A stretch of 64,000 nt of DNA from Polytrichum commune. Its lineage: Eukaryota > Streptophyta > Polytrichopsida > Polytrichales > Polytrichaceae. Positions 10,840 through 44,560 of this stretch are shown here, in pieces (position 1 is the stretch's first letter; every line of letters starts with the position of its first letter). The notes under the pieces were generated by a model. That model was not told the origin of the DNA and searched no databases. It was given only the letters and a program-made list of their open reading frames with translations. The stretch spans positions 43,176,758 through 43,240,757 of the forward strand of contig OX485805.1 of NCBI GenBank assembly GCA_950295325.1, in the 5' to 3' direction. Position numbers and translations under genes: made by a program.

Positions 10840-11450
10840 GGCCGGCGATTGGGCGCGACGTTTGGGGTAGGGACACGTGGAGGCACGCCATTGTTTTAGG
10901 GTTCCAAGTACTCCAGCACCCTTTCGCCCTCGCTCTTCGTGCTTTTCCTTCCTTCTCTATCATATCTTCCTTCCGTTCCTTCTACTGTTGCTCTTGCTTC
11001 TCTTGCTTTAGGGTTATAGGGTTTCAAAGTACACCAGCTCCCTTTTGCCCTCCTCTTCGTGCTTTTGCTTCCTTCTCTTGCAACTCTTGTTTCTCTTGTT
11101 TCTCTTGTTTCTCTTGCTCATCTGCTCTTGCTTCTCTTGCTCATTTGCTCATCTTCTCTTGCTCATCTGCTCTTGCTCATCTTCTCTTGCTCATCTTCTC
11201 TTGCTCATCTACTCTTCTTCTCTTGCTCATCTTCTCTTGCTCAACTTCTCATCTTCTCTTGCTCATCTGCTCATCTTCTTTTGCTTCTTTTGCTTCTCTT
11301 CGCTTTCTTCTCTTGTTTCTCTTGCTTCTTACCCTTATCTTCACTTTCTTCTCTCTCTTCTCTTGCTTCCCTTGCTGGTCTTGCTTCTCTTTCCTCACAA
11401 TGCAAAACTCATTCTTATTGGTCAATTGCTGACGCGCGTCAGAGCTAGAG
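10840..11450 (+). promoter_or_regulatory. probable promoter and first leader exon of cassette A
   Basis: An ACACGTGG G-box-like element is at about 10,872, TTTAGGG teloboxes are at about 10,894 and 11,007, and a partial duplication of about 121 bp follows (AAGTACTCCAGC at 10,907, AAGTACACCAGC at 11,028). A long pyrimidine tract of TCTTGC/CATCT type then runs to 11,400. A short palindrome CTGACGCGCGTCAG at 11,429–11,442 shares the GACGCGCGTC core of the A-type site. Long open frames in the pyrimidine tract are low-complexity and are not taken as coding. Transcription start is inferred only. Confidence 0.4.
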
Positions 11451-11831
11451 TAAGTTCTCCTTGTTTGCTGCTCATTTGCTTATTAGCTCATTAGCTCATT
11501 AGTAAGTTTTGCTTGCTGCTTGCTTGCTGCTCATTAGATCATTAGGATGCTCATTGTTGCTTGCTACTGCTCATTAGGTTGTTTTCAGTTGTTGATCTCA
11601 GTTGTTGCAAGGGTAATTAGTGTTTCAGATGTTGCTCATTAGGGTTTCAGTTGTAGCTTCACCATGTAGTTCATTATATTTTTTGCATACAAATCAATAG
11701 TTTCCTTTCACTTGTGTTGCATGAATCTGATTTATGAGCAACTTTTTTTGAGTAGTTCTCAATGTTGAATCATGCATGTGCACATTGAATTACTAGAGGT
11801 TTCTGACCTCAATTTTATTGTTCATTTGCAG

Positions 11832-12174
11832 TTGGTATTAGCTGCAGCAGGAGCAGCTAGTTGTGGTTTAGGAGCAAACACTCTAGAAAGGTAAGTTTTT
11901 TAGAACATTGCAATTGCATTTTGTATGATTGCAATTTTGGGTTGTTGTGGTTTAGGGCTTAAGGTTAGCATGACAGAATGTGAGATTCCAGTTTCAAGGA
12001 ATTCTGAATTTGTTTAGTACTTTGTCTATGGCTACATTCTAAGAATCATTTAGTTATGGACATGTCAGTGTTCTGAAAGTGCCTTATGTTGTCAATCTGC
12101 AGTGCAGTGTTTGCTATTGCAGTGAAGTAAGATTGCATTCTTATTTGGAGGGCAAAACCATATTGGACGACAAG
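11832..12174 (+). other. two predicted non-coding leader exons, cassette A
   Basis: Exon 11,832–11,890 sits between acceptor TTTGCAG and donor AAAG|GTAAGT. Exon 12,123–12,174 sits between TTGCAG and ACAAG|GTAAAG. Neither contains ATG, consistent with 5' untranslated exons. The following intron, 12,175–13,013, holds the palindrome array. Confidence 0.4.
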
Positions 12175-12250
12175 GTAAAGTCCCGAAAAACACGGAGCAT
12201 TAATGAAAACATTGGAATACGCAAACATTACAATAGCCTTTATAATCCTC

Positions 12251-12733
12251 AAAGTTTACGGACGCGCGTCCGTAAACTTTGTGGATCTTTGTGTAGGTGA
12301 GAGACAAGCCTTTCAAACAACATATTACGCAAACGAAGCCAAATATTGTAATATTAGGCATATTAAAATAGCCTTTATAATACTCAAAGTTTACGGACGC
12401 GCGTCCGTAAACTTTGTGGATCTTTGTGTAGGTGAGAAACAAGACTCTCAAACCGCATATTACGCAAACGAAGCCAAATATTGTAATATTAGGCATATTA
12501 AAATAACCTTTATAATACTCAAAGTTTACGGACGCGCGTCCGTAAACTTTGTGGATCTTTGGGTAGGTGAGAGACAAGCCTCTCAAACAATATATTACGC
12601 AAACGAAGCCAAATATTGTAATATTAGGCATATTAAAATAGCCTTTATAATACTCAAAGTTTACGGACGCGCGTCCGTAAACTTTGTGGATCTTTGTGTA
12701 GGTGAGAAACAAGACTCTCAAAAATATATGTAG
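12251..12733. repeat. 135-bp tandem array, four 30-bp A-type palindromes
   Basis: Perfect 30-bp palindromes (AAAG + TTTACGGACG, CG, mirror) start at 12,251, 12,386, 12,521 and 12,656, exactly 135 bp apart. The spacer repeats as TTTGTGGATCTTTGTGTAGG and onwards. Because 135 is a multiple of three, both strands stay open for over 170 codons. These frames are artefacts. The array lies in the leader intron before the start-codon exon. Confidence 0.9.
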
Positions 12734-12810
12734 GTGAGAAACAAGACTCTCAAAAAAATATTAACCGTAACTTGAATACATTGATATTTACCACCATACT
12801 ATCTTTGCGA

Positions 12811-12960
12811 AGTTTACGGACGCGCGTCCGTAACTTATAGAGATATTTGAGTATATAATATACGCGTTATGCGTATTTGGAAGAAATGTATCTTTTCATT
12901 TGGATCCAAAAATGTAATTGAGACAATTTGGAAAACTTTACGAACGCGCATTCGTAAAGT
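12811..12960. repeat. two further A-type sites before the start exon
   Basis: One site at about 12,811–12,835 has a one-base deletion in the right flank. The second, at about 12,935–12,960, reads CTTTACGAACG with mirror CATTCGTAAAG. The G-to-A change in one arm is matched by C-to-T in the other. Confidence 0.7.
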
Positions 12961-13013
12961 ATGATCTATATCTTTTGCCAAGAATTCTAACTTATCTATC
13001 TTATCATTTGCAG

Positions 13014-14301
13014 ATGGCATCTAAAAAGAGACATGCAATTGAGATGTTCGCAGAAGCTCTCATTCCTCCGCTACCAGAAGCCATCAAAGACATAAGTCCC
13101 AACGACCATTACAAGCCACAAGATGAAATTGTGGATAATTGGACAGTATTGGTAGAAAAGGACGAGAAAGAAATATTTGTGCTTAGATTTGCATATCAAA
13201 TGAAGACGGGCATAGATGAAGCTGAGAAGTGGATAAAGCTTAAATCGTGGACAGTAGAGTGTGCAGTGGCACAAGGGGATTATGTAGTAATAGACCTTGA
13301 GAAGAAAGAAGATCGGGTCACTTTCATTTTGCACGAATCCTACCACCCCTTCAACAAAAATGAGTGTGAGAATGCTAGTACAGATGCGGCTTGCTTCAAT
13401 CTCCAGACGGAGTTCCAAGACTATGCATGCAATGCACCTTGGACGGGTAAGCGGCTTGAACGACTCTTGAACAATGTAACAAGAGTAAATGGAGCCTTGC
13501 TAGAGGCCAGAAAGGGGAAAGATAAGAAAACAAATCGTTCCTGAACGACCCAAGCGTGTGCCTAAACCAGTGCCGGAATCCTCAAGGCCCTCGCAGAGTG
13601 GTGCATCAAGAGGGAGCAGACAGGCGAGTAAACGCTCTCACTCGCAGATGGACTCTGGACTAACAGAGGGTCCGGATGTCAGCTCTACACTGACTGTCGC
13701 TCCACTCCTCAAAAAGGGTCAACGCCCTGACGCCGAACTCTCAACAAAAATATTCCAAGAGTTCGATGAGAAGACGAAGGGATGCTGGCCCCTTGGCAGG
13801 TATTTTACTTTCGAAGTAGACGTCTACAAATGCCACAAGGGCACCGAAAGTATGAATACCAGAGCAAAAGAAGAAAGCGGTGTATGGTGGCAAATGAACA
13901 ACATCATGAACAACCCCAAGTTTGACAGGCAAACCATTTGTGTGACACCAAAGGATCCTATCGTTGAAGTCAACGAAAAAAATTGGCCGATTCTCAAGAA
14001 TGGAGAGTTCTACATTGTCCACGGCCAACATAGTGTAATGGCTGCAAAAGCTCTCCTTGAAGACGACGAGTGGAAAAGCCCATTAAAGGAGACAATCCGA
14101 TATTGGAAGGCATTCGTCGTGCATTCCAAGGACTCGAACCAACTCATAGCAATATCTGCCTTCATGAACCAGGGGAATAAAGTGAGGCAGTTCGAGGCTT
14201 CATGGGCAGCCAACATCGTGGCTGGGAGGACCTTGTGGGTGGAGCACGAATGTCCCCCAAAAGAAAGAGATAATGCTGTCGTGAAGAACCCAAAATGGCA
14301 G
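13014..14301 (+). pseudogene. cassette A exon 1: N-terminal domain plus ParB-like segment (one frameshift)
   Basis: The ATG follows directly on acceptor TTTGCAG and gives MASKKRHAIEMF. About 165 residues of a domain with no recognised family follow, then a Ser-rich linker. The second half carries RQTICVTP, KNGEFYIVHGQHSVMAAK (GQHS at 14,023–14,034) and KAFVVHSKDSNQ. The layout resembles ParB/sulfiredoxin-fold or DGQHR proteins, where the G-x-(H/R)-R region binds nucleotide or DNA; the usual Arg is Ser here. The exon is one base too long (1,288 nt). The frame must shift around the A-run near 13,524–13,531, where removing one A gives KKQIVPERPKRVPKP. It ends KNPKWQ at donor GGCAG|GTATGT, phase 0. 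Cassettes B and C have homologous exons. The frameshift could be a real lesion or an assembly indel. Confidence 0.6.
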
Positions 14302-14318
14302 GTATGTTACTCAAATAG

Positions 14319-14342
14319 ATTTACGGACGTGCGTCCGTAAAT
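14319..14342. repeat. A-type site in intron 1
   Basis: ATTTACGGACG, TG, CGTCCGTAAAT, starting 17 nt after the donor. The homologous intron of cassettes B and C holds their own site types at the same place. Confidence 0.85.
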
Positions 14343-14433
14343 GTGGCCCTTCTCCTCCCACTGATTCAAATATTTGAATTTAATTTGTACTGAATTCAAT
14401 GTTCTGATTTCTTGCAATTCGCGCCTCTTGCAG

Positions 14434-15753
14434 ACATTCAGCAATGCCATATTGACAAAGTTCTCGAGTATAGACATGAAGACAAGCGGCATGAAAACAG
14501 TGCATGAATTAAAAGGCGAACTCAAGCTCATCACTGCAACAGAAGAGACGTGGTCAATATGGTTGCGACTTTTCGATGCCCACAACAACGGCGACCTTGT
14601 CAATCCAGATACGGAGAACACCTACAAGAGCGACTCAAAAGTTAAGGTACCACCAATCCTGCGAGAGTTCTTTCGTCCCCTCCAAGGATTGATGGACTCG
14701 GAGCTGTACAGGGCAGCAGAACACATTCTTCTAGAAACTCCTAAAAGAACTCTGCCCTATCCCAAAATCTTTCTGAAGCGGCCGAAGCACATGAAGCCAT
14801 CCACGTACCACATTAAGGAATGGTGCGATTACAGAAAGAAGAAGACCATGGCTGTAAGGGAGATTAGCAAATTGCTACCCACCCACAACCTCATTAATAG
14901 TGATGGTGAGATCGTGTGGGAGAATTGGAGGAAGCTGAAGGGTGAATACCACATCAATGGCGTCTCAATGCGAGCTTTGATAAGAGGGGCATCATCCTTC
15001 CTTGCCCAACGATCCAGAAGGAACGAAAAGAAGGGATCCATCGACGAGAGGGAGGCAGGGTTGTATGTTCACTTTCTCGATAGGAAAAAGAACGCGAAAT
15101 TTGGAGGGTTTGCAAGATTCTGCACGGTCGCAAAGGGCATGAAGTTCGGCGCATGGGACACCCATGCTTCAAGAGCCTCTGTGAGAGATGACCCCAGGGG
15201 TTGCCTTTTCGCCATTTTTTATTTTCGTGCAATTCCCGGAGCATGGAAGCAAGACGTTGCGGGAGCACCCTTCTACGAGCCCTTCTTAAAAGCCTTCAAG
15301 AGCTATCGCTCGCCTGCCCTCTTCGAGCCTCATGTGTGGTTATGGATTGTAGAGCAAGAGAGGTCCACATCCATTGTCCATCTGTACACATCAACGATGG
15401 ACCTCGAATACGATATGTACCACAGCACCTACATCCCAGCGAAGACAGAAGGGATCACTTTCATTCAAGAGGCAAGGGGGGTGAAGCAAGTGGGAGCTGT
15501 GCAGCTTTATTTCTTAACACGCAAGTCTTCCCCAACTGGGCGATTGCCCATTAAACCACACGAGGTGTTCAGGAAAGTCTATTCGTTGCCGCCACCACAT
15601 CCCAAGGAGCTTGTTGAGGAGACAATGCATGCAATCTATCCGGCGTTCGAGCTCCGGATGGACTTTTATATAGGGGTCTTGAAGGCTTTAACTGTCATGA
15701 GTGAGACAGTTTACAACGTCTTCGGAGGCACGAAGTTTATGTATGCAGCACTG
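14434..15753 (+). CDS. cassette A exon 2: domain resembling a degenerate beta-class DNA methyltransferase
   Basis: The exon is 440 codons, phase 0 at both ends (TTGCAG|ACA, CTG|GTGAGT). It starts TFSNAILTKFSSID. Conserved landmarks shared with cassette C are FFR(P/T)LQGL, KKK, PFYEPFL (from about 15,265), (V/I)WLWIVE, and ELRM(D/E)FY...NVFGG(T/S)K...A at the end (motif 15,715–15,732). The order of a PFY motif, then a target-recognition-like stretch, then FxGG followed by MLGL...(E/D)D in the next exon, mimics beta-class amino-methyltransferases (DPPY, then DPFxGSGT). The catalytic Asp of DPPY and the Asp before Pro-Phe are missing, so activity is doubtful. ParB–methyltransferase fusions exist in phages and plasmids, which supports the reading. 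The exon is intact. Confidence 0.55.
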
Positions 15754-15799
15754 GTGAGTATTTGTTTGTCTTTCAACCCACCTATCTTTTGCATAGTTA

Positions 15800-15915
15800 T
15801 TTTACGGATGCGCGTCCGTAAAAACCCAGTATCAGGTGCATGTGAATTTTACGACCGTGCGTCCGTAAAATTGTCCAACTTTTGAGTGGTGGTTTTACGG
15901 ACGCGCGTCCGTATA
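15800..15915. repeat. three A-type sites in intron 2
   Basis: Sites at about 15,800–15,823 (one C-to-T change), 15,845–15,872 (AATTTTACGACCG, TG, CGTCCGTAAAATT) and 15,893–15,915. All lie between donor 15,754 and acceptor 15,989. Open frames crossing this intron are not coding. Confidence 0.8.
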
Positions 15916-15989
15916 ACGTGTTGACATCTAGCCTCATTTATATGCAATCACCACTATTGTTCTTATCTAATTTTCTTGTTATGGTCCAG

Positions 15990-17405
15990 ATGCTTGGCTT
16001 GCAGGTGAATTCTTTTGTGCAGGATTCCGACTACGATGACGCCCATACTCACAGGGTAATGGCCTCCAAAATGGATATCCAGGACATCATGGACGTCCTT
16101 ACACCCCATCCTGTTGTGCCTCTTTCTTCTAGAGAAGAGGCAATGCCCGGAATGGAGACAGACCCTGAAGAGGACCAAGATCCCAGTTCCCCAAGAGCGC
16201 AACCCTCCACACAGGAGCCTTTACACGGCCTTGTTCGCGACCCAATTAATCCAAGTGCTTTCCTGCTGGGAACAGACGACACGGATGCGCAGGAGGCACG
16301 CGTGAACTTCACTCTGATAAGGGTCCCTCATACCCCTGTTCTCTCACCTTTTGGGATTCCCACCTCTCGAGTTGGATTTCCCTCAACTGCGGGTCCATCT
16401 CGTGCTCCAAGAGTTATGGCCGAGAAGGATGTGGACCTTGCGGCAGAAGGCGGATGCACCGCTTCATCTGGAGGGGGATCTCAACATTCAGATCTACCCC
16501 CTATGGAGGGGAGGGATGTGCTGGAGTTGATATTGAGGCCTGATATCTCTCTATATCGTGAGAGTCGACGAAAGAGGAACAAGACGCCATACAACGAATA
16601 CCCTGAAGGCGCGGTCTTGGAGCTCTCCGATGAAGACGAGGATGAGATTAGGATTCACAATGCCATCTCTGCCTTGCCTACGGAACCTGGCAAGGTGAAG
16701 AAAGAGCCGATGTCAGTGTCCGAATTGGACGAGAAGATGGAGAGGCGAATGAAGGAAGAGCTTGACCAACGGCTTCGAGAAGCTAACGAGGAGCACGCCA
16801 AAAAGATGGCCGCCATCCAAGCTGAGATGGAGCAAGCTAGGTTGGAGTCTGCTCGAAGGCACGCCGATCTCATGGCCCAAAATCAACAGTTCTTGGCCCA
16901 AAGTCAACAATTTATGAGCCTGATGCAGAGCTTGCAGGCAAGACCCCCTGTAGTCTATACAGCTCCCGATGCCGTCATGTCTATGCCCCCCACTCTCATG
17001 CGGCCTCCGTCTAGTAGCCATGCGGTGTATATACCCGAGCATACTTATCCAGCCCCCGCGTTGATTGTCCCGCCCTCTCCCCTTGTTGTCGCCACTCCAG
17101 AGGAGCCCTCCTCTCATCCTACAGGAGTGGAGGAGATACCGGCACGTGACATGGCGGGTGCCGCCGAGACAGATGTCAATGAAGGCAATGCCCCCATCGG
17201 CGATGAAGATGTACATATGCGGGGCAGCCAAGACTCCACAGATGAGGATCAGCCTTACGTGGATACTCAAGGGTCGCAAGCGGCTGGAGACACCTTGTTG
17301 GTGGTCGAAGATCTGGACAATTTTGCGGACGCGCGTCCGGATCCTGTGCCCATGACGGGGCCAGGTGAGGGAGGCACTACTGGCACGGACCTCGCCCTTG
17401 AAGAG
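15990..17405 (+). CDS. cassette A exon 3: end of methyltransferase-like segment, acidic linker, coiled coil
   Basis: The exon is 472 codons, phase 0. It opens MLGLQVNSFVQDSDYDD, completing the motif-I/II-like segment of exon 2. A disordered, Pro/Ser/Glu-rich region follows, containing RRKRNKTPYNEYPEG and AVLELSDEDEDE (16,611–16,640), a hydrophobic core plus acidic run like a SUMO-interacting motif. A coiled coil of about 60 residues (EKMERRMKEELDQRLREANE and onwards, 16,730–16,900) then runs into Gln/Met and Pro-rich sequence. Near the end an A-type palindrome lies inside the coding sequence and encodes DARPD. The donor is GAAGAG|GTAATC. Reading on gives VINL and a stop in the intron. Cassettes B and C have the same exon with only short conserved patches. 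Confidence 0.65.
17326..17339. repeat. A-type palindrome core inside coding exon 3
   Basis: CGGACGC followed by its mirror, 14 bp, with decayed outer arms. It is read in frame as part of NFADARPDP. Confidence 0.75.
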
Positions 17406-17434
17406 GTAATCAACCTTTGAGCATGCCTCCCATG

Positions 17435-17450
17435 TTACGGACGCGCGTCC
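17435..17450. repeat. A-type site in intron 3, right arm decayed
   Basis: GTTACGGACG, CG, CGTCC, then AAAAC replaces GTAAAC. It lies 29 nt after the donor at 17,406. Confidence 0.7.
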
Positions 17451-17745
17451 AAAACTTCCTTGTCTGCCTCCTTCGTGGCGTGTGTATATTATCGAGTTCA
17501 ATCCTCGACTTCGCCCGGCGGGTGGATACAATTTTGTTAGCATAGATTCCATTAACTTCAACAAATATTTTTTGCGACAATGTATATTATTCACCAAATG
17601 TATATCACCAATTACATTAATACCAATTTTTCAACTAGATGGTTCGGATTATTTTTGGCCTTATAATTTGTGTTGAGTTTATCCATGCTTGTCAATTGGT
17701 TTTCTTGAGTAGTACCATTTACCTAGATAGAATGTTCCATCACAG

Positions 17746-18513
17746 GGTCCGTCGGAGATATGTCGCAACCCCGCGGAAAAACCAAGCGCGCCCATGATGA
17801 AACCGTTCATAATATTTGACCTCAATGGGGTGCTTTGTCAATCCAAACATATCTCGAATAGTGCGTCCAAAGGGCCCTTCCGTAGTCCACAAGACATGGA
17901 TTACGGCGGACATTTCGATACTCTCATAAATAAGAAGGTTGTACGTGCCCGCCCCGGTTTGAGGAGCTTCCTTCGTGAGGTCCTTGGCTTCGCCCATGTC
18001 ATCATCTGGAGCTCTATGCTCATGGACAACACGAAGGCCATCGTCGGTTTCCTTTTCCGAGAACTCGCAATGCCATGCTTGCTTCTCGGTCAAGAACACT
18101 GCGATGACCTCTATGACCGTAGTGGCAATATTGTACCCAAGGTCGGAGGAGGTCGTGGGCCTCAATTCTTAAAGGTCCTGAGGAAGAACCTCTGGGTGGG
18201 CGTCCCTATGTTGGAGGGGGTTCCCCACGGTTGTTGGCCCACCCCGGATAACACACTCCTCATTGACGACAGCCCGGCAAAGAGTATTCTCAATCCCCCG
18301 GGCAATTGCATATTCCCGGATCCTTGGGAAAGCGATAGAAATGACAACTTTCTAGAGAGTGAACTAGGACCCTACATTAGGAGGCTTGCCTATCACCCCG
18401 GAAGTGTCCCGGATTTTGTGCTCTCCAACCCAATTGGCAATAGGCCTCTAGGCCCACAAGATGAGGAATTTAGGAGATTGTACGGCTACGCTAGACTCAA
18501 TAAATTAATATGA
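17746..18513 (+). CDS. cassette A exon 4: FCP1/NLI-type HAD phosphatase domain
   Basis: The exon begins after acceptor ATCACAG and joins exon 3 in phase 0 (LALEE|GPSEICRNP). It then encodes about 255 residues to a TGA. Motif I is FIIFDLNGVL (residues 21–30 of the exon), motif II VIIWSSM, and the late motif LLIDDSPAKS with LNPPGN. This is the plant FCP1-homology/NLI-interacting-factor type of HAD hydrolase, normally a phosphoprotein phosphatase in the nucleus. The second catalytic Asp of DxDxT is Asn. The nucleophile Asp and the DD pair are kept, so the domain may bind rather than turn over a phosphoprotein. It ends YARLNKLI, and cassette C ends YNKLI, so the stop is conserved. The start of the exon could also be used as its own gene (MMKPFIIFDL). 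Confidence 0.75.
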   Translation, partial: GPSEICRNPAEKPSAPMMKPFIIFDLNGVLCQSKHISNSASKGPFRSPQDMDYGGHFDTLINKKVVRARPGLRSFLREVLGFAHVIIWSSMLMDNTKAIVGFLFRELAMPCLLLGQEHCDDLYDRSGNIVPKVGGGRGPQFLKVLRKNLWVGVPMLEGVPHGCWPTPDNTLLIDDSPAKSILNPPGNCIFPDPWESDRNDNFLESELGPYIRRLAYHPGSVPDFVLSNPIGNRPLGPQDEEFRRLYGYARLNKLI

Positions 18514-18605
18514 AAACTTTGATGATTTTGGGTTTGTACTTGGACTCTCCATGTAAATATCTAACATTTCTCCCCTTATCTTTGTAATGTATTTTTGTGT
18601 CTTAG

Positions 18606-19004
18606 TTGCCTCACCAAGCACCCAAAAGTGTCGTCAATGGCATGTCTGCATCTCAGGCAGACACCGGCTCCCTTTCCCTTGGTATGAGCGACGTTGCAAT
18701 GCCTTCACTATTCCAATATTCGGCCGTCGATGCTGCCTCTGCTGTTGATTACTCCAAAGACTCCGGGTTTGAAGACGGAGTCGTGGATAGCCCTCCTGCA
18801 AAGGTTGCAAAACTCAATTACTCTCCAAGTCCATCTCCATCTCCCCTCCGCAGTGAGAAGCACGTCCGTAACCCACGGTCGACCAGACGCCTTTGCATGG
18901 ATGAACCCCAAATTGATGTCCCGGCGTTTGCGAACGTCCCTCTCGGGCTTGTATCTACACCCGTCGATGTCCCAAAAGCTCTAACCAGCGCCCCAAAGGC
19001 GAAG
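18606..19004 (+). CDS. cassette A exon 5: Ser/Pro-rich terminal exon
   Basis: Acceptor TGTCTTAG precedes it and donor GCGAAG|GTGCCC ends it. It is 399 nt, phase 0 at both ends. It encodes a disordered segment with VDAASAVDYSKDSGFEDG, VDSPPAK and SPSPSPSPLRSEKH, homologous to C exon 5 (YDAASTIDYSKEP, VIDSPPPK, SPSPSPLKG). The SP pairs look like proline-directed phosphosites next to the HAD domain. It has no ATG needed for translation. Exon 3 also ends in phase 0, so exon 3 could splice either to exon 4 or to this exon. A separate gene with an unseen first exon is the alternative. Confidence 0.5.
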
Positions 19005-19154
19005 GTGCCCAACTATTGGCATTCTCAAGTTTTTCCTTGATGATTTCCGTGTATTAGTGCATTTCAACTTCTTGGGTTTTTCGGACTTCCATCCATAACT
19101 TGTAACCACTTATACTAACCCACTTCATTATATATATTTATGGTCATTGTTCAG

Positions 19155-19502
19155 ACCCCAATGTACACGAATGTGGGCCGGGCATCATCGACTTCGTCAT
19201 TGGATAGGCGAACACTGAAGACAGCTTCTTGCGAGTCTGATCGTTGTTTGGCCCTACGGAAGAGTGCAAGACGTTCGGTTTCCCAAACGCATTCGTATTC
19301 CACTTATTCGGAAGGGGGTCGGCAAATATGGGCAAATGGCGCATATTCGGGGTCAACAAATAAACAAGGTTACAGCCGCGGACCCGAGATCTTTAGAGCC
19401 ATGGAGGCCATGAAAGCAAAGGAACGTGAAACGGCCGTAAATGCTAATAATAGTATTGCAAAAGCAAAAGTAGTGAGTCGTAATCATGATCCGAACGTAT
19501 AG
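19155..19502 (+). CDS. cassette A exon 6: C-terminal tail
   Basis: Acceptor TTGTTCAG, start TPMYTNVGRASS, phase 0, 115 codons. A basic Ser-rich part (LRKSARRSVSQTHSYS) is followed by KQGYSRGPEIFRAMEAMKAKE. The GYSRG(P/A)EIFR..EAM(K/R)AKE block is shared with cassette C exon 6, so the exon is real. Function unknown. Confidence 0.55.
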   Translation, partial: TPMYTNVGRASSTSSLDRRTLKTASCESDRCLALRKSARRSVSQTHSYSTYSEGGRQIWANGAYSGSTNKQGYSRGPEIFRAMEAMKAKERETAVNANNSIAKAKVVSRNHDPNV

Positions 19503-19767
19503 GCTATATTAACATACATGTAGTTGTGGAATTATGTTTCTAGGACTTTCGCCTAATATTGGATATTCCACTTGCATTTTGTACTTCAACCCCTATTCAA
19601 TAAATATGATATTGATTTTCCATATGCAAATGTTTTCATATATCCCATTTTCTTATTGTTAATGTGTAGTTCCATGCATTTGAGTCTCTTATTTGTTTCC
19701 AAAATTGGGAACATAGCATATTTTTAGTGTTTTCATTCCTATAAATGTGAAAGCCACGTCCTTAAAT

Positions 19768-23140: not shown

Positions 23141-23149
23141 CGCTTGTCA

Positions 23150-32482: not shown

Positions 32483-32506
32483 CCGGACCTTTATGGTGAT
32501 AGATTT

Positions 32507-35750: not shown

Positions 35751-35843
35751 GTTTGGGTCGAACGACCCAAACCAAAGAGTTAGTTTGGGTCGAGCGACCC
35801 AAACCCAACAGCCGACAGCTGGTTTGGGTCGAGCGACCCAAAC
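35751..35843. repeat. three C-type sites in the leader intron
   Basis: GTTTGGGTCG, two bases, CGACCCAAAC at 35,751 (AA), 35,783 (AG) and 35,822 (AG), with repeated CCAACAGC spacers. Confidence 0.9.
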
Positions 35844-35858
35844 CCAACAGCTGGTTTG

Positions 35859-36831
35859 TGTCGCGCACCTCTCCATGAGGAGTGCCCGAAACACCATGGG
35901 CACAAGGGGGACCCCGGAGTGACACCCGGGACTTGTGGCGCTGTTGGTGAGAGGGCCCAAGTGATCCTAGTGTGGGTGAGGGCCCCGGGCGTTGGGAACG
36001 CCTCCCACCCACGAAGACTAGTAGGCATGAGGGTAAGGCCATGAGCTATGTGTAGCTCATGGCGTGGTGATTCTAGAAAGCTCAAGAACACCTCAATCGG
36101 AGGTGTGAGGTAGGAGTTATGGCCATTTGAGTGGGGCGCTGTCCCGGGACAGCGCCCTGGTACAGCAGTGCCTGGGAGTGATTCCCGGGACTGCCAAGGT
36201 TCAAACAGGCATAGCGTCCTCAATACTTGTCCGAATGGGGCAAGTGAGGAGTCCATCGGCATCTACGTGAAGCGTAGATGAAGATGGAGTGGTTGGTTGT
36301 TATGATCAGACATCATACAAGGAAGTTATGATGGTCTGAAGCTGCTAGGGGGTTCTAGGCCCAGCAGCTAAAGGAAAATGTCCACTTGGCCCCAACTCTT
36401 GGTGGAGAGACAAGAGGTTGGTTGACGGTGGGGTAGGGGCCCCGCGTGAAGTCCTAGAGGCTTATATGGGTGAGGTGGTGTGGCCTCACCCACCTGAGGC
36501 CGAACGGCATGGCCTCCATGGGCATTGGCCCATTGTGAGGCCATAGTTGCCTAGTATGGTTCGGGTTGTTGTAGTGTTGCTCCGGCAACGCGATGATCAA
36601 CATAGGATTGGACTTCCATGGATGGAAGTCCACATCTAGGAATGGGTTACCGATTAAGGGGTGAGTCCCGAAAGTAAAGTAGGAGGGTTGGTTCCCTCCT
36701 ATGAACTATAAGGTCCGGGGTAGGAGGAGCTAACCATTAGCATGGCGGAATGCGAATGGTTAGCGCTCGTAACCTTTGCTAGAATTGAAAATTGGCAAGA
36801 TTGTCAAGGGAGGCTAGCAAGGGTTGCGACA
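35859..36831. mobile_element. LTR-like insertion within the C-type array
   Basis: This 973-bp block interrupts the array; identical CCCAAACCCAACAGCTGGTTTG flanks occur on both sides. It begins TGTCGCGCACC and ends GGTTGCGACA (TG...CA with TGTCGC/GCGACA inverted ends), as in a solo LTR or a TRIM. The flanking pentamers GTTTG and AATTG match at only three of five positions, so a target duplication is not proven. It contains no coding region; open frames are unconvincing. Confidence 0.5.
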
Positions 36832-37229
36832 AATTGGGTCGAGCGACCCAAACCCAACAGCTGGTTTGGGTCGAGCGACCCAAACCATGGAAAAACATAT
36901 TCATATCGATCCAATAAAATTAAATCTCATGAAACAAATTTATTATACAGATCTATTTTGGGATGTACACTTATATCTAAAAAATATGAAAGTTACCAAA
37001 AAACAAAGCACTAATAATTATTTGACCTACTATCTCAAAATTTGTATTGCACGATCGAGCTAATTTCATACAGCAGATAATTGTTGCCAATTATCAAACC
37101 CACTACTGGCTTGTGTTTGGGTCGATCTACCCAAACCTGCCAATTCGTGACCTCAACATATATGACATCGGTAATTCCCGTCAACATGCTAATATACATT
37201 TGTAATAGTTTGGGTCGAACGACCGAAAC
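36832..37229. repeat. four C-type sites in the leader intron, right of the insertion
   Basis: Sites at 36,832 (left arm AATTGGGTCG), 36,864 (perfect), 37,115 (centre AT, right arm CTACCCAAAC) and 37,208 (centre AA, right arm CGACCGAAAC). The last lies 25 nt before the start codon exon. Confidence 0.85.
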
Positions 37230-37254
37230 TAATAGCGTTGTGGTTTTCTTGCAG

Positions 37255-38583
37255 ATGGCCCCCAAAAAAAGACCTGGAGAGAGATGGTTTATGATCGCAC
37301 CAGATGTGGTTTGGCAGGAACACAAAACACCTGAAGATGAATCTTATGTGCCTAAGGATGGGCTGGTGATTGCGTGGTCTCTCCAAGTGGTGAAGGCATC
37401 TCAATTCAAGATCCTCTTTGTGGTGAAAATTGGGACAGTGGATCAAAACACATGGGCAACTTTGACGGGGTGGGAGGTGGCGTCAGTACAGGCTCTAGGT
37501 GACTACGTGGACGTCATACTCGAGAATTCTGCAATGCAGAATGCGCACATGTTCATGCATCAATTCTCCGAGGCATTTGACCCCCTGTACGTAAAAGAAA
37601 CTTGCATTGAGCGAGAGGTTATTAAACCAGAGTCTATCTTCATAGATGGAAGCATTTCAAACACAAAGGTGGCAACCAGGTTTACAAAGCTTAAGCAAGC
37701 AATCAACGCATTAAACAAGGCTCAACAGAGCAAGTCAAAATCACAACAGCTGGTGAGGAGGAAGGCCACAACAGAAGAAGGCGCGGGCTCGTCGAGACCT
37801 CAAACAGTGAGGAAGCTGCGGGCGGTTCCAGCTGACTCAAGAAGAACCATGCCTACGGCAACACCGGCGGATAGTGAGACACCCACGCCATCAAACAACC
37901 GTCAGACAACTCCTTCAAAGAGGCAAAGAAAATCGGCATCAGTTATGACGGACGAGCCAGTTTCCCCAGAACTGCGTATGCCAAAGCCCGGATAAGAAGT
38001 GGATGCGTCTGAGATCCAAAGAATCGTGAACAATTTCACGACCAAGTGTTCTCACTGTTTCTTCATGGGTAGGGATTTCAAATTTGACATCAATATTGCT
38101 CAGTGTCACCTAGCCCCACCAGAAAAGTGTGTTCGGGCAAAGGAAGATGCCTACGTCGATTGGATAATCGCCCAGATAGTGAGCGAGCAATTCAAAGACA
38201 ATAGGCAAACTATTGTAGTCATGCCCCAGGGACACGAAAGAATGCCCACTCCGGATATGTGGCCGTCAATTCAAAAAGGCGATTTTTGGCTAATTGACGG
38301 ACAACACAGCGTGGAAGCGTCGAAGAAAATCCAACTCATGGCCGAGTGGGATGATCCCAATAACCAAAAAGATAAATTGAAGGTGTGGAAGGCCTTGGTG
38401 GTGTGGTCAGATGACGAAACCAGACTCAGTGACATCTCCCGCTACTTCAATATGGGGAACAAGAAACGGGCATACCAAGCTTCGTGGATTCGCAACATCA
38501 TGGCCTCACGCGAGGTGTGGGAGTTCTACGGCAGGCCTCCCAAGGAGAGGGAGAATGCGAAGGACAAGAATCCAAAGTGGGAG
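37255..38583 (+). pseudogene. cassette C exon 1: N-terminal domain plus ParB-like segment (in-frame stop)
   Basis: The ATG follows directly on acceptor TTCTTGCAG: MAPKKRPGERWF. An N-terminal domain of about 160 residues is followed by a long Ser/Thr/Lys-rich linker (KATTEEGAGSSRPQ ... SKRQRKSASVMTD). A TAA at 37,993–37,995 interrupts, and the same frame continues VDASEIQRIVNNF to the ParB-like part: NRQTIVVMPQ, KGDFWLIDGQHSVEASKK (GQHS 38,299–38,310), KVWKALVVWSDDE, YFNMGNKKRAYQASW. The exon ends NPKWE at donor GAG|GTGAGT, phase 0. It is 443 codons, close to cassette A (429). Confidence 0.6.
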
Positions 38584-38592
38584 GTGAGTGTG

Positions 38593-38614
38593 GTTTGGGT
38601 CGATCGACCCAAAC
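38593..38614. repeat. C-type site in intron 1, fully palindromic
   Basis: GTTTGGGTCG, AT, CGACCCAAAC, nine nt after the donor. Confidence 0.9.
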
Positions 38615-38715
38615 CCTTGTAAGAGTTAATATTCACGGTTTTTCATCTAAGCAAATGTCCAACTAACATATACATATCTAACATGCATTTCTATGTTTAT
38701 GTGCAATATTTCAAG

Positions 38716-40038
38716 TACCAAATGATCAATAAGTTCTCCTCCATTGACAATGCGAGTCACAAGCAAAAGAAATATAACGAGTTGCGAGGAGAAATTTATT
38801 TGATAACAGCATCCGACCATGTCTGGTTGAAGTGGAAGAACGTGTTCGAGAAGCACGAGACGGGGGACCTGATGGATCCCGACACAGGCCTGCTTTTCAA
38901 CTCGACCGCACGTTTCAAGCAGCTCAAGCCTTTGATGAGAAAATTCTTTCGAACACTCCAAGGGCTTTCGGAGACAGACATGGGGAAGGCGGCCACGCAC
39001 ATCCTGCACGTCGAGCCCACGGCAAAGAGATGTTGGGTGCACCCAAAGATAGTCTTCTCCAAGCCTAAATCATTCATTCCTTCATGCTACACCATGAAGG
39101 AATGGACGGAGAATAAGAAGAAGAAGAACACCATCGTCCAAGAGTTGCACAAGATAGTCCCCGAAATGAACCTTTTTGTGGATGGCGAGGTCCACGACGC
39201 AAACTGGAAAGCATTCAAGGCGGAGTACAAGTTCACAAGTGCATCTATGGCGGCTCTCATCAGGGAAGCGGGGGAAGACTTCCTGCGGTCTAAGCTGGTG
39301 AAAGGTGGGAAGAATCGGGCACTTCCCGATCACACAGCGCGTGTCTTCTCGAATTTCATAAAGGAGAAGAGAATAGTCAGTTTTGAGGGGGACGCGCATT
39401 TCAACCTTGTCACCCTGGAGCCTCTAAAAATCCAGGGGTGGCCTGGCGTTGAGGCTCGCAAGACGATAAGGACGAATGCTGGGGATCGATTCCCCTTTGG
39501 GATGATAGACTTCAGGAACATTCCTGGAAGTTCGTTTGAGGGTACTATGAGCACCCCCTTCTATGAGCCCTTCTTATCAAAGTTCGTCGACTATGCAAGT
39601 CCCAAATTTAGGGAGGTCGACATTTGGTTGTGAATAGTCGAGGATAGGAAGGCGGAGCAGGTATATGAGATTGCGAGGAAATTGCAACCTGATTATGCTG
39701 TCTCTAAATCTCATTACATTGTTGCACCGGCGGAGGGGTCTTACTCGACGTTGAAGGACAAAAAAACAAAGCTTGTCGACGTATTGTGTTTGTACTTTGT
39801 ATACAAAGCGAACTTGCTGAAGGTCGACAACCACCCCATAAACCGGATGGAAAAACTCTTCCAAGTACCAGAGGGGTTGGGTGCCAGCAAGAGCCTCTAC
39901 GACGAGGCCAAGTACGCGAACTATACTGCCGGCGAGCTGCGGATGGAGTTCTACTTACGGATAATGAGGGCCTTGACAAGAAGAGGGGATTCTATTTTCA
40001 ACGTCTTCGGGGGTTCCAAACCTATCTATGCTGGCATG
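38716..40038 (+). pseudogene. cassette C exon 2: methyltransferase-like segment (Trp codon changed to stop)
   Basis: Acceptor TTTCAAG, start YQMINKFSSID (three residues shorter than A). It aligns with A along its whole length: FFRTLQGL, KKKK, SMAALIREAG, TPFYEPFL (39,553–39,573), GELRMEFYLRIMRAL and IFNVFGGSKPIYAGM. At 39,631–39,633 TGA stands where A has TGG (DIWL*IVED against VWLWIVEQ), a clear G-to-A nonsense change; the frame is open on both sides. The donor is ATG|GTAAGT, phase 0. The motif-I-like end continues in exon 3 as MLGLKMYSYIEDND, which fits the Gly-rich loop and acidic residue of a Rossmann methyltransferase. Confidence 0.6.
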
Positions 40039-40067
40039 GTAAGTAACTTCAAAATAGTTGGTTTATA

Positions 40068-40233
40068 ATTTGGGTCGAGCGACCCAAACTTGCCACAGTG
40101 AAGGTTTGGGTCGAGCGACCCAAACTTGCCACAGTGATGGTTTGGGTCGAGCGACCCAAACTTGACACAGTGAAGGTTTGGGTCGAGCGACCCAAACTTG
40201 ACACAGTGAAGGTTTGGGTCGAGCGACCCAAAC
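40068..40233. repeat. 36-bp tandem array, five C-type sites, intron 2
   Basis: Sites start at 40,068, 40,104, 40,140, 40,176 and 40,212, exactly 36 bp apart, all with centre AG. Spacer TTG(C/A)CACAGTGA(A/T)G. Frames on both strands stay open because 36 is a multiple of three. Confidence 0.92.
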
Positions 40234-40327
40234 CTTTTGTATTGGTTTTCTCTTATTGTTTCTTTTTCTTGTTCTTGGTGTAATTTAATGAGCATATCTC
40301 TTATCCAAGTTCTTTTTGAATGTCCAG

Positions 40328-41803
40328 ATGTTGGGTTTGAAAATGTACTCCTATATAGAGGACAATGATTTTCAATTTTACAAAACCCAAAAAGCCCTAG
40401 CCAAGAAGATGGACATCCTCGATTGGATCCCGGGGAGCTACATGGAGGAGATTGTAGAGGGGGGTGAAAACCCGATGGATATGGCAAGGCGTGTCAACCC
40501 TGCAGAATTTGCCACGAGTGCTCCAGTTGGAGCACCCGAACCACTCGTAGGATTGCATCCGGGTACCTCATCTCGGGGGCCAGGTGACGAGGTGGAGGAG
40601 GAGGAGGAACAAGAGGACCATAAGGCGGAAGGGGAGGTAGAAGAAGGAGCAACGGGTTACACGCAAGAATCAGAAGCCCCCCAATGGAAGAAAGCTATGC
40701 GGGTGGCAACCCCGCAAAGCAAGTTGGTGCCCGTCCTCACGGTGGACGATGCTAGAGACATGTACTCCAGGGACGCGACAGCAACGTTCAGGGAGAGGAG
40801 GAAGTTGAAGGGGAAGAAGCTCTACAGCGACTACGCAAGGGAGGAGACCATCGCCATAAGCAGCGAGGACGAGGACGATATGGAGCTCGCCAAACGGCTC
40901 AGATCGGATCCCCCCTCCCCGACATCGTTCGCAGGCATGGTTAGGGTGAAACCAGAAGTCCTGACTGTGGAGGAGGCGAACGAGAAGATGCGGAGGGACG
41001 AGGAGCAGCGAGTCCGCATGCAGAAGGTTGCCGTAGAAGAACCCTCAATGCGGAACGAGCTAGCAGAGTTGAGGGCTCTCCTATTGGAGCAGGAGCGACA
41101 AAGGGCGATGGCCCAACCTCCATCCAGCGCCGAGCTGATATCGCAGGTCATTCAAGGAATGTGGGCGCAAGGATTGGTGGTGGCTCCCTCGAGCGCCTTT
41201 CCGCACTTGCCCGCCGGCTTCCCTGCCCAGAGCATTCCTCAACAGTCTGTGCCGCAAGCGTCATTCAGCTTCCAACACATGATGCGGCCACACAATGTCC
41301 CCTACGCCCCGGTCCAGCAAGTGGACGATCCCAACATCTGGCGTGTCTCTGGAGCCTCCTCTCCTTTGGGGCCTCCACCACTTCGGCCCCCCATAGTGAT
41401 GGCGCCCCCTCACCAGCATGACGACCCCCGAATGTTTGGGTCGGATGACCCAAACACACCCCCCTGTGTAGTGCCACAAGGGAACTACCCCGATGCAGGA
41501 CAATTTGGGTCGGGTGACCCAAACCTTGGTGCAGGACAGTCGTCCCTTGACCAACATGGGTGTGAAAAAGACACAACCATGTTAGATGTTGAAGGCCTGC
41601 AAGGGCCTGGTGATACCTCTACTCCTAACCAAGTCGATGAACCCATGCATGATGCACATGCGGAGATTGGTTTAGGACAAGGGCCTGATCCTGGACCTTT
41701 GCAGGAGAAGGTTGCTGATGTCGTTGAAGAAGGCGTTGGAGAGAGAGGAGGGGCAGCGCAGACGATGGAGCCCTCCACGGCATCGAGACATGACCAGGGC
41801 GAG
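40328..41803 (+). CDS. cassette C exon 3: acidic linker and coiled coil
   Basis: 492 codons, phase 0 (ATGTCCAG|ATG ... GGCGAG|GTAATA). MLGLKMYSYIEDNDFQF completes the motif-I-like region. Then come a Glu-rich stretch, RERRKLKGKKLYSDYAREE and TIAISSEDEDDMEL (40,850–40,880), the positional equivalent of the SUMO-interaction-like motif of A and B. A coiled coil (MRNELAELRALLLEQERQR) and a Pro/Gln/Met-rich tail follow. Two C-type palindromes are translated as FGSDDPN and FGSGDPN. Intact. Confidence 0.65.
41434..41524. repeat. two C-type palindromes inside coding exon 3
   Basis: 41,434–41,455 (GTTTGGGTCG, GA, TGACCCAAAC) and 41,503–41,524 (ATTTGGGTCG, GG, TGACCCAAAC). Both are read in the same frame as FGS(D/G)DPN. 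Confidence 0.88.
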
Positions 41804-41824
41804 GTAATACACTGAAACCTCTCA

Positions 41825-41846
41825 GTTTGGGTCGATCAACCCAAAC
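41825..41846. repeat. C-type site in intron 3
   Basis: GTTTGGGTCG, AT, CAACCCAAAC, 21 nt after the donor. Confidence 0.85.
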
Positions 41847-42287
41847 CTCCTGGGTCATTGTCTTGTTGGCGTGGTCTTGTCCCCCTAGCTAGGAGGAACT
41901 GCACCCCGGCCTTCCGATGCCCATATGTCCAATACCTGCGCCCTTTCAGTGCCCCCCTTCGCGATCATTTCGTCACCCTACACTCGACTACGCTCGATAT
42001 TGCGCGGCGCTTACAGGCAATTTTGTAGATGCACAGTTAGGATAGTGTGAATGGCTAGTTCACCGCGGTTCACCCCCCATCAAATTGTACATAGAGATTT
42101 GTAACAATAAAATTATTATTTTTGGCGCCCATATGTTTGCATCCGTGTCCCAATGTATGTTGTTCGCCTTGTATGTTTTTGTTGCCACCAATGGTCCAAT
42201 TATTGTGTTTGCACAAAATTTCCGTTCTGCTTGAGATGGACATAGCATAACATAGTCCTCGCCGCCTTCTCTCGCTCGTCGCCGCAG

Positions 42288-43100
42288 GGTTCGGAGCATA
42301 GCGTCGCGGCTCCCCACCGATCCTCTCCGAGAAGTGTGGAGGACAGCGCGGTGGTCCCCCTGATTTTGCCCTCGCCACCTTCGCCTCCCAAGACCCGGTT
42401 CCTGGTGCTAGACCTCAACGGGGTCCTTGTCCAGTGCGTGCATTGTCCGAGGGTCCCCACGGTGCCTTTCTGCAAGCCCGAGGACGCCAACTACGATGGA
42501 CCCTCCGCGTACATCAAAAGCAAGCTAGTGTACCTCCGCCCGTCCCTTCGGCGATTCCTACAGGTCGCCCTATCCAAATGGTGGGTGATCATTTGGAGCT
42601 CCATGAAGTCCGAGAATACCCAGGCCGTCGTGGAGTTCATCTTCAAGGGACTCTAACCCCCGTGTTTGGTCCTAGGACAGGATTCTTGTAAAACATTGTA
42701 CACCCCCGAGGGCAGGGTTGTGAAGAAGCCCAGCAACCCCGCCGTAAACCAATTTCTTAAGGTCTTGAAGCCAGTCGTATGGGACCAGCGTCCGACCATG
42801 GTCGGCTGTCCCTACGACGTGCGCCCCACCCGTGACAACACGTTGATGGTGGACGACAGCGCTTCCAAAAACATTTTGAACCCGACCTCGAACTTCATAG
42901 TTTGCCTGACGTGGACGGTCGAGAAGGTCCGAGACCGCTTTTTGTTAGACCTACTTAAGTACATTCAAACGCTCGTGGGGAGCGGACTACCCGTGCCCCG
43001 GTTCCTTAGTTGTAATCCGATAGGCGAAAGATACATGGATCCGAAGGACTATATGTACAGAGAGTTGTACGCTCACGCGAAATATAATAAACTCATTTGA
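42288..43100 (+). pseudogene. cassette C exon 4: FCP1/NLI-type HAD domain (in-frame stop)
   Basis: Acceptor TCGCCGCAG, joined to exon 3 in phase 0 (DQGE|GSEHSVAAPHRSS). Motif I is FLVLDLNGVLV, motif II VIIWSSM, and the late motif is LMVDDSASKN with LNPTSN. TAA at 42,654–42,656 falls between FIFKGL and PPCLVLGQDSC, where A reads FRELAMPCLLLGQE. The second catalytic Asp is Asn, and the usual Pro after DDS is Ala. It ends HAKYNKLI at the stop conserved with A. It appears to be a recently damaged copy. Confidence 0.7.
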
Positions 43101-43240
43101 GATACTACATGGTGTGCCATTGTGTGTGATATTTTATGCCTCAATTGTATATCGATTTTCACATGCCCCCCCCCTCCCCTTGGATTTTGTTTGTTTTAAT
43201 TTTGCCATTAACGTTTGGAGCCCTCGATTGAGATCGTCAG

Positions 43241-43564
43241 CGAATCAAACTTGGGGGCTTCTTCTACAAGACCGTCTACGATGCCGCGTCCACCATCGAC
43301 TACTCCAAGGAGCCTATTGACGCCGGTGTCATCGATAGCCCCCCACCCAAGCAAATCTTCCGGCGATCTCCGTCCCCGTCGCCGCTCAAGGGCATAAATC
43401 GCAAATGCGTCCGGACATCCCCCTCTCGGCCCGGCGGCAGTAGTACACCTCAACGGCGGCTGCGGATGGACGCTCGGCCTACGAAGAGTGGCACCCTTCC
43501 TATTCCTTTGCGGGACGCATTGCCCCTCCTCGCCAACTCCGACGGGAACGCCTCCGGTGACAAG
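43241..43564 (+). CDS. cassette C exon 5: Ser/Pro-rich terminal exon
   Basis: Acceptor ATCGTCAG, donor GACAAG|GTGAAC, 324 nt, phase 0 at both ends. It reads FFYKTVYDAASTIDYSKEP, VIDSPPPK, SPSPSPLKG and ends SDGNASGDK. It has no ATG, so it must be an internal or terminal exon. Homologous to A exon 5. Confidence 0.55.
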
Positions 43565-43642
43565 GTGAACCCCCCCCCCCCCCAAAACATGGTTAACCGC
43601 GCATTACAATCATCCGGCACTTAAAAAATGAACGTGTGACAC

Positions 43643-43664
43643 GTTTGGGTCTTCCTCCCTAAAC
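43643..43664. repeat. decayed C-type site in intron 5
   Basis: GTTTGGGTCT, TC, CTCCCTAAAC. Confidence 0.6.
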
Positions 43665-43697
43665 TAACACGTGTGTTCTTGCATTCACGCGTTGCAG

Positions 43698-44015
43698 GTT
43701 GCTCCCACCCGTAAACCTATGCGGGCTAGTACGTCCGTCGAGTTGGAGCGTTTCTACTCCATGACCAGAAATGCAAGACAGTCCACTTCATCGTATTCGA
43801 ATTCTTCGTCGTATAATTCGGGCGGCCGACGGAATCCAAAATGTGTTATTGATGGCGGTCACCCCAAGAATGGCTATAGTCGCGGGGCGGAGATTTTCAG
43901 GAATGTTGAAGCAATGCGAGCAAAAGAAGCCGCAGCAAAAGAAAAAGAGGCAAAAGAAAAAGAGGCAAAAGAAAAAAAAGCAAAAGAAAAAGAGGCACTC
44001 TCCGAGGCTAGATAG
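43698..44015 (+). CDS. cassette C exon 6: C-terminal tail
   Basis: Acceptor GCGTTGCAG, phase 0, 105 codons: VAPTRKPMRASTSVELERFY, a Ser-rich basic part, then NGYSRGAEIFRNVEAMRAKE and a run of (K/E)KEAKE repeats ending SEAR. The GYSRG-EIFR block is shared with A exon 6. Confidence 0.6.
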   Translation, partial: VAPTRKPMRASTSVELERFYSMTRNARQSTSSYSNSSSYNSGGRRNPKCVIDGGHPKNGYSRGAEIFRNVEAMRAKEAAAKEKEAKEKEAKEKKAKEKEALSEAR

Positions 44016-44159
44016 GCCATAGTAGGCGTAGGGTTTTGGGCCATAGGCAAGAACATTTTGGGTCGCACTATCCAATGGATGTGTGGTGTTAGCATGCTAT
44101 GCATTTTACATGCCATACTTTGTATGTTCTATTTGCAATAATATAAGTGTCACATGATT

Positions 44160-44400
44160 TCCCCTTCCATATGGTCTAAGGTTTGGATTGCCCTACCTAA
44201 ACCATCACAAATATGAATTTGGAATATTTTGTATGCAATATTATATTGGTTAACATATTAACCCTTCAATAAGGTCTATGGTTTGGATTGCCCTACCTAA
44301 ACCATATTCATACAAGCTCTAATATTTTGTGTGCAATAATATGAATGTTTTAAGGTTTCCCCTTCAATTTGGTCTAAGGTTTGGGTTGCCCACCCTAAAC
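44160..44400. repeat. 100-bp repeats with decayed C-type sites
   Basis: At 44,181, 44,281 and 44,379: GTTTGGATTG, CC, CTACCTAAAC (twice) and GTTTGGGTTG, CC, CACCCTAAAC. The surrounding GGTCTA(A/T)GG and TATGCAATATTAT-like spacer repeats too. Confidence 0.75.
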
Positions 44401-44517
44401 CATCACAAATATGAGTTATATATGGGGTTCTTGGTCTAAACACCCGCTTCAAAGTGTTCGCATCTTACAACTTTCTCCAATATGTGTTCCATTTATCCTT
44501 GTTCTTATTTATGTGAA

Positions 44518-44560
44518 TGTCTCAAAATGCCCAAAAAGTCTCAATTTAACGAATATAGTG
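44518..44560 (+). repeat. conserved 3' terminus of cassette C
   Basis: TGTCTCAAAATGCCC, then AAAAAGTCTCAATT, then TAACGAATATAGTG, matching R1 and cassette A. Confidence 0.65.

Follow-up and report, generated by a model that had tools for sequence, protein, structure and literature searches.

We analysed a 64,000-nucleotide stretch of the Polytrichum commune genome (assembly GCA_950295325.1, contig OX485805.1, positions 43,176,758 to 43,240,757; hereafter referred to as the window), in which members of three families of large DNA transposons, A, B and C, each carry their own 22-bp palindrome of 10-2-10 layout in many places. The families are apparently autonomous. An earlier note, made from the sequence alone, had described three cassettes between positions 10840 and 44560, each with such a private palindrome. 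A mismatch scan and genome-wide counts confirmed the palindromes, and the cassettes proved to belong to transposons: A is a whole element, B and C are both truncated, and B is nested inside C. The span was also too narrow, in that it missed the left 8.3 kb of A with its transposase-like gene and seven strong sites (6617-7433).

Element A and its truncated, nested neighbours

Element A is complete, and its palindromes and genes, the latter given by their open reading frames (ORFs), are arranged as follows.

2530-19812: element A, a complete DNA transposon of 17,283 bp with terminal inverted repeat AACACTATATTCGTTA and a 4-bp target duplication, CAAT
3190-6351, minus strand: DUF7869 transposase-like gene (ORFs 3190-3795, 3799-4806, 5008-5622 and 5626-6351)
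6617-7454: seven A-type palindromes ahead of the transposase-like gene, including five within 95-bp repeats at 7053-7433
12255-12958: six A-type palindromes ahead of gene 1, including four within 135-bp repeats
12918-17420, plus strand: gene 1 (exon ORFs 12918-13541, 13504-14337, 14365-15882 and 15846-17417, bounds approximate), with a GQHS motif and a possible ParB/sulfiredoxin (Srx) fold in exon 2
14320-14341: A-type palindrome in gene 1 intron 2, 18 bp past the inferred GT donor
15801-15915: three A-type palindromes in gene 1 intron 3, with unrelated flanks
17731-18513, plus strand: FCP1/NIF-like HAD-fold gene (motif DLNGVL; PF03031, E = 4.4e-13)
18606-19502, plus strand: two more ORFs (18606-19037 and 19119-19499), each 40% identical to a C ORF

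Six A copies were compared with the window copy; five of five with both ends share the termini of element A, namely AACACTATATTCGTTA and its reverse complement, and the sixth has no left end. Target duplications of 4 bp were found at six of six A insertions (CAAT in the window; ATGG, TATT, CTCA, TTGT and TATA elsewhere). A 4-kb piece of A had 32 full-length genome matches at 95-100% identity, the window included, among the 37 best of 290 candidates that were scored. Across the four ORFs of the transposase-like gene, DUF7869 (PF25273; ORF 3799-4806, E = 1.1e-40), which Pfam lists as a domain of unknown function, was the only family above cut-off, and a Mutator-like transposase was not found in them. 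We infer that this gene encodes the transposase.

In the window, only the right-hand part of B remains, with its right end inside the C remnant, and the features of the two are listed below.

22935-33138: element B, right part only, matching a full B copy; right end within element C
24116-24920: eleven B-type palindromes ahead of gene 1, in two 47-48 bp arrays
25138-30167, plus strand: gene 1 of B, broken (25138-26442, 26946-27464, 27313-28251 and 28269-30164)
26581, 28070 and 28705: B sites in gene 1; the full copy places the first two in introns, and 28705 falls within the last ORF
30246-30370: two B-type palindromes ahead of the FCP1-like gene
30589-31413, plus strand: FCP1/NIF-like gene of B (motif DVNGIL; 36% identical to the A gene)
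31656 and 32507: further B sites, 3' of the B FCP1-like gene by position
33139-44562: element C, right part only, its right inverted end identical to that of A over 16 bp
35751-37229: seven C-type palindromes ahead of the probable gene 1 start
37081-41815, plus strand: gene 1 of C, with in-frame stops (37081-37992, 37996-38619, 38623-39630, 39634-40065 and 40292-41812)
38593-40233: C-type palindromes in gene 1 introns (one at 38593 and five in 36-bp repeats at 40068-40212)
41434-41846: three C-type palindromes, of which 41434 and 41503 fall within the final ORF of gene 1 and 41825 lies just past it
42246-43100, plus strand: FCP1/NIF-like gene of C, with one in-frame stop and 42-45% identity to the A gene

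The one full B copy spans 24.96 kb between ATGGGGATATTAAC and its near reverse complement, with the target duplication ATCC, and its FCP1-like gene matches PF03031 (E = 3.8e-11). The 16-bp end that the C family shares with A was seen on the right in the window copy and on the left in another, longer copy, no single copy having both ends seen and the right bound of the long copy being estimated. In a related C copy the gene 1 frames are open. The 3' half of the C FCP1-like gene, which was the part scanned, scored 18.8 bits against PF03031, for which the cut-off is 21.8. Between window B and full B, the FCP1-like gene (30589-31413) is 97% identical but gene 1 just 86-88%, hinting at module exchange among elements.

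A shared anatomy and signs of mobility

Comparison of A, full B and long C revealed one common layout, with a DUF7869 gene running leftward and gene 1 and the FCP1/NIF-like gene running rightward; the DUF7869 genes of full B and long C were recognised as relatives of the A gene by tblastn. Terminal inverted repeats together with fixed-length target duplications were found at six insertions of A and one of B. We then examined the layout genome-wide at 150 scored DUF7869 places (the best of 1490 candidates), using 220 places with a relative of gene 1 exon 3, namely 85 for A, 46 for B (the first 46 of 101) and 89 for C, drawn from 1196, 884 and 1231 candidates, respectively. An exon 3 relative lay within 40 kb of 88 of the 150 DUF7869 places, and 78 of the 88 pairs were divergently oriented; about 6 would be expected under random placement. 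The three cassettes had been said to share homologous exons in one order, which clearly holds between A and C, and in B for the FCP1-like gene; in gene 1 of B, the homology of exons 2 and 3 rests on about 20% aligned identity, and exon 3 is weak (one short match).

PF25273 was absent from the 14 control genomes scanned. A viral or prokaryotic origin was considered and rejected, as neither gene 1 exon 3 nor the transposase-like gene had a relative in IMG/VR, and scans of gene 1 against PHROGs and NCBIfam gave nothing convincing.

One palindrome per family

Inside the element bounds in the window we found 17 A, 18 B and 16 C sites at up to three mismatches; the earlier estimates of about 13, over 18 and about 17 were thus low for A and close for B and C. 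Across the host genome (407.8 Mb, forward strand, up to two mismatches) there are 5172 A, 1323 B and 13,295 C sites. The same patterns read backwards gave 0, 1 and 0, which excludes chance as the source of these thousands of sites.

To see which elements hold which type, we took a census at up to two mismatches over nine stretches, comprising the window, six A copies, one B copy and one C copy. All 112 A sites lay inside A elements, many of them being corresponding sites of near-identical copies. The B type gave 37 sites, of which 36 lay inside B, and the remaining one was a variant palindrome in a separate array. For C, 48 of 81 sites fell in the two named C copies and the other 33 in one flank, which is a diverged C element. 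No A, B or C element in these stretches, nested ones included, holds a site of another family. The earlier observation that no type occurs inside another cassette therefore holds throughout the census, with no mixing of types within single copies, and the expectation that sites cluster in cassette homologues holds for almost all sites counted there, the B variant lying outside. A sites also adjoin three A-like copies whose exon 3 is 73, 77 and 81% identical (first contig, among the first 100 sites). The half-sites of the three types had further been said to align, and GG at positions 6-7 and G at position 10 are indeed common to all; the chance probability is about 0.02, which makes a common origin of the sites no more than a suggestion.

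The sites have a recurrent placement in A, full B and long C, ahead of both the transposase-like gene and gene 1 and within gene 1 introns. B and C sites are also found beside the FCP1-like gene, where A has 4-mismatch traces only. None of the 16 A sites (up to two mismatches) lies in a coding ORF, although such ORFs fill about half of A (exon bounds approximate).

Further palindromes were noted near these elements. A fourth 10-2-10 palindrome, GAGGCCTCGG-NN-CCGAGGCCTC, has eleven exact copies in 307-bp repeats at L021:2-1614, in the left flank of A copy c7b, and one B-like variant palindrome lies among them at L021 position 221. A DUF7869 gene about 51% identical to that of A is located at L023:7033-9063; the fourth site type could not be tied to a gene 1. 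In addition, two C half-sites form a 13-5-13 hairpin at 46933-46963 in the window and at 23155 in copy c7a, in another repeated element outside C.

The 22 bp as the conserved unit

Information content is 1.1-2.0 bits at each arm position and mostly near 2, while the highest single value outside the 22 bp is 1.4 bits for A, 0.6 for B and 0.9 for C; in A, the copies within one tandem repeat have flanks in common. Once sites with related flanks had been grouped, A retained 10 unrelated contexts, full B 13 and long C 8. One A copy sits within a C element about 73% identical to the compared C copy, and this pair of C subfamilies is a better test of constraint than near-identical copies. At six sites matched by position, from 16 outside the main array, the arms agreed at 115 of 120 positions, the flanks at 487 of 633 and the centre at 7 of 12 (Fisher's exact test, P = 1.7e-7). 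The 79-bp arrays of the two subfamilies gave the same picture (arms 0.97, gapped flanks 0.66), as did their consensus units (arms 20/20, flanks 44/55 aligned columns). The 22-bp site is constrained independently of its flanks.

These data bear on the idea that the palindromes have no function and are tandem repeats spread by slippage and gene conversion, or hairpin-forming sequences. Many sites do stand in tandem arrays, C half-sites form a hairpin with a 5-nt loop outside C elements, and among near-identical copies the arms were not clearly better kept than the flanks (P = 0.05 for B and 0.15 for C). However, the same 22 bp recurs in 8-13 unrelated contexts per long element, the arms are 96% identical where the flanks are 77%, and it is the arm sequence that is kept, beyond complementarity. 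A 2-nt spacer is moreover too short for a hairpin loop, which speaks against an RNA hairpin. We thus consider a lack of function very improbable. Conservation of the arm sequence, and not of pairing alone, points to a dimeric protein as the reader of the sites.

Candidate readers of the palindromes

The transposase could be that protein, with the palindromes acting as internal binding sites for transposition or for autoregulation of the transposase; maize Spm, which has subterminal sites, is the model for such an arrangement. In line with this, A, full B and long C all have arrays ahead of the transposase-like gene, and full B has one site 0.2 kb from its left end (3 mismatches) and another 0.6 kb from its right end. 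In A, by contrast, the sites (up to three mismatches) begin 4.1 kb from the left end and end 3.9 kb from the right end, with weaker 4-mismatch traces nearer the ends (4806 and 17322-17434), and many sites are intronic in gene 1. A and C also have transposases 56-70% identical and the same 16 terminal bases but wholly different palindromes, and hence the sites are not simply what an end-binding transposase reads. We regard the transposase as a rather unlikely reader.

Host transcription factors or chromatin proteins, recruited separately by each family with no element-encoded reader, would suit the promoter-proximal and intronic positions, as expected of cis-regulatory use. Three 20-bp specificities, each confined to one family among the elements examined, are hard to explain in this way, and we hold such recruitment to be distinctly unlikely.

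Since the sites are family-specific, palindromic, constrained beyond their flanks and mostly located ahead of genes and in introns, self-recognition is the best reading. An element-encoded dimer, most likely the product of gene 1, would bind the palindromes so that only the DNA of its own family is marked; the bound dimer would keep the genes of the element transcribed or unsilenced, possibly via an FCP1-like partner; and protein and site would change together as families diverge. We judge this proposal as a whole to be about equally likely right or wrong. The earlier suggestion of self-recognition by an element-encoded DNA-binding protein thus stands as the preferred account, with partial support from sequence comparison.

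Gene 1 is the candidate reader of the sites. Between A and C, gene 1 is 25-40% identical, well below the transposases, and the nonsynonymous divergence (dN) is 0.66-0.67 in gene 1 exons 2-3 versus 0.22 in the transposase core, with synonymous sites saturated. Between window B and full B, the ratio of nonsynonymous to synonymous divergence (dN/dS) in gene 1 is 0.20-0.39, indicating purifying selection; six values for C range from 0.24 to 0.99 on few changes. In the search with A exon 3, 35 of the 37 best matches were free of stops. The fast-changing companion gene and the private tags suggest that each family encodes a protein recognising its own DNA alone, perhaps as an escape from host silencing. 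Anti-silencing or activation as the effect of binding is proposed by analogy, with anti-silencing the likeliest purpose, and the FCP1-like gene may have a role in keeping the element active.

Several observations weigh against this proposal. The FCP1-like gene has diverged nearly as fast as gene 1 (A-C dN 0.60), and therefore divergence rate alone does not single out gene 1. Scans of gene 1 with sequence family libraries assigned it to no family and recognised neither a helix-turn-helix (HTH) nor any other known DNA-binding domain, and the structure model of exon 3 was unusable, with a predicted local distance difference test score (pLDDT) of 37. For C, two of the six dN/dS estimates lie close to 1 (based on few changes), and 41 of the 48 remaining A exon 3 matches carry stops. 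C sites at 41434 and 41503 and the B site at 28705 lie inside the last gene 1 ORF. In a B-like copy (L033, 69% identity), the 1.9 kb running from exon 2 into exon 5 contain no family-like 10-2-10 site, and intron 2, which carries a site in B, is missing. Finally, the match between site type and gene 1 lineage was checked for A, B and C only.

A more specific version would have gene 1 encode a nucleotide-switched dimer with a ParB fold that loads at the family-specific 22-bp palindromes, spreads and so marks the whole element as self, recruiting a transposon-borne protein resembling a phosphatase of the RNA polymerase C-terminal domain (CTD) so that the element stays transcribed and unsilenced. 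Gene 1 comprises an exon 1 with a YEATS match below cut-off (E = 0.005), an exon 2 with the possible ParB/sulfiredoxin fold, a large exon 3 and an apparently disordered last exon. Exon 2 was modelled with AlphaFold from the three window sequences, and the model has a mean pLDDT of 56, with 69-90 per ten-residue block over residues 101-220. Foldseek matched it to ParB, Noc or sulfiredoxin chains in 26 of the 29 best PDB rows, the other three being Atu1540, at E = 0.003-0.79 (none at or below 0.001) and with template-modelling scores (TM-scores) of 0.20-0.30 by query and 0.27-0.62 by target; this likeness is a single, uncontrolled fold match. Sequence profile searches of PDB and family scans returned no ParB relative of gene 1. 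A ParB/Srx fold for exon 2 is thus plausible from the model, and a ParB-type clamp function only possible.

In this version the palindromes would act as parS does, being the places where a ParB-like clamp loads before it spreads over the element. The structural matches of exon 2 favour this, as does the known behaviour of ParB, which loads at parS and then spreads (PMC12704722). Against it, ParB P motifs read GxxR (PMC12704722), and the arginine is replaced by serine or threonine in all three families (GQHS in A and C, GQHT in B). No HTH was found in the family scans, the Foldseek E-values and TM-scores are those given above, and the exon 2 model is confident only over residues ~101-220. Neither a central HTH nor a C-terminal dimerisation domain was recognised in gene 1 by family scans and an exon 3 model of such low confidence. 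We therefore think the ParB-type mechanism unlikely and parS-like loading equally so. If it were true, three reader-site specificities in one window would imply at least two switches.

Other features of the window

Two further features lie outside these genes. At 20841-21980, between element A and the B remnant, there are C-rich tandem repeats with poly-T runs. At 54906-61073, on the minus strand, kinase, NB-ARC and leucine-rich repeat domains follow in series, the leucine-rich block consisting of about 22 copies of a 144-bp repeat; this domain combination is associated with mosses.

Comparison with known systems

VANDAL transposons are Mutator-like, and the elements described here differ from them in carrying a DUF7869 gene and making 4-bp target duplications. 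The earlier note knew of no described eukaryotic element with private sites of this kind; this is contradicted by VANDAL in Arabidopsis, whose VANC proteins bind motifs of 8-9 bp; these stand in arrays in noncoding sequence, both ahead of the transposase gene and within introns (PMC5735166). Motifs vary among related VANDAL families, VANC is less conserved than the transposase, and the action of VANC leads to a loss of DNA methylation (PMC5735166); anti-silencing by VANC is also treated in PMC10398659. Here too, short family-specific motifs, often in tandem, lie mainly in noncoding DNA upstream of the transposase gene and in introns (three window sites being in coding ORFs), related families differ in motif, and the companion gene 1 changes faster than the transposase. 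There are also differences: VANDAL motifs are 8-9 bp in a single orientation, whereas the present site is a 22-bp palindrome with 20-bp specificity, and VANC has DUF1985/DUF287, of which the exon ORFs of gene 1, scanned separately, had no match at E ≤ 1. For VANDAL, motif binding and methylation loss have been shown; for the present elements, binding and anti-silencing are proposed. As far as DNA can tell, the present elements resemble VANDAL/VANC and yet are not members.

The ParB-parS and Noc systems are matched by a gene 1 exon 2 that may have the same fold and by many palindromic sites on the element. Unlike them, gene 1 belongs to a eukaryotic transposon, its P motif is GQHS or GQHT, and the HTH and dimerisation domain were not recognised in family scans. 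Sulfiredoxin is the commonest eukaryotic member of the ParB-CTPase fold in a survey (PMC12704722).

With the FCP1/SCP-like (NIF) HAD phosphatases, the third gene shares PF03031, which is above cut-off in A and full B. It differs in being transposon-borne and in motif I, which reads D-x-N in A, B and C. The classical FCP1/SCP-like motif I is DxDx(T/V). Maize Spm with TnpA combines an element-encoded protein, repeated sites in the element and an epigenetic role, its sites being subterminal and 12 bp long. The proposed element-encoded reader with repeated sites is similar, and the superfamily and proteins differ. Fungal DNA transposons that encode a TET/JBP dioxygenase are likewise DNA transposons with a gene possibly countering silencing (PMC12730594, in the part available). 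They carry an enzyme acting on methylcytosine and, in that part of the account, apparently no family-specific site system (PMC12730594).

A literature search on DUF7869 did not find the term, and searches on moss DNA transposons, on ParB-like proteins with plant transposons and on anti-silencing with palindromes or in bryophytes gave no account of such a system, subscription papers being mostly outside the search. If self-recognition is borne out, these elements would be a second case beside VANDAL, with an unrelated transposase, possibly a ParB-fold protein and a palindromic site, and a sequence-specific anti-silencing strategy would have evolved more than once. With three specificities, and as many as ~1200 candidate relatives of gene 1 in one genome (the 85 best scored), the co-evolution of reader and site would be directly testable, and readers with 20-bp specificity, if they exist, would be useful tools for addressing DNA.

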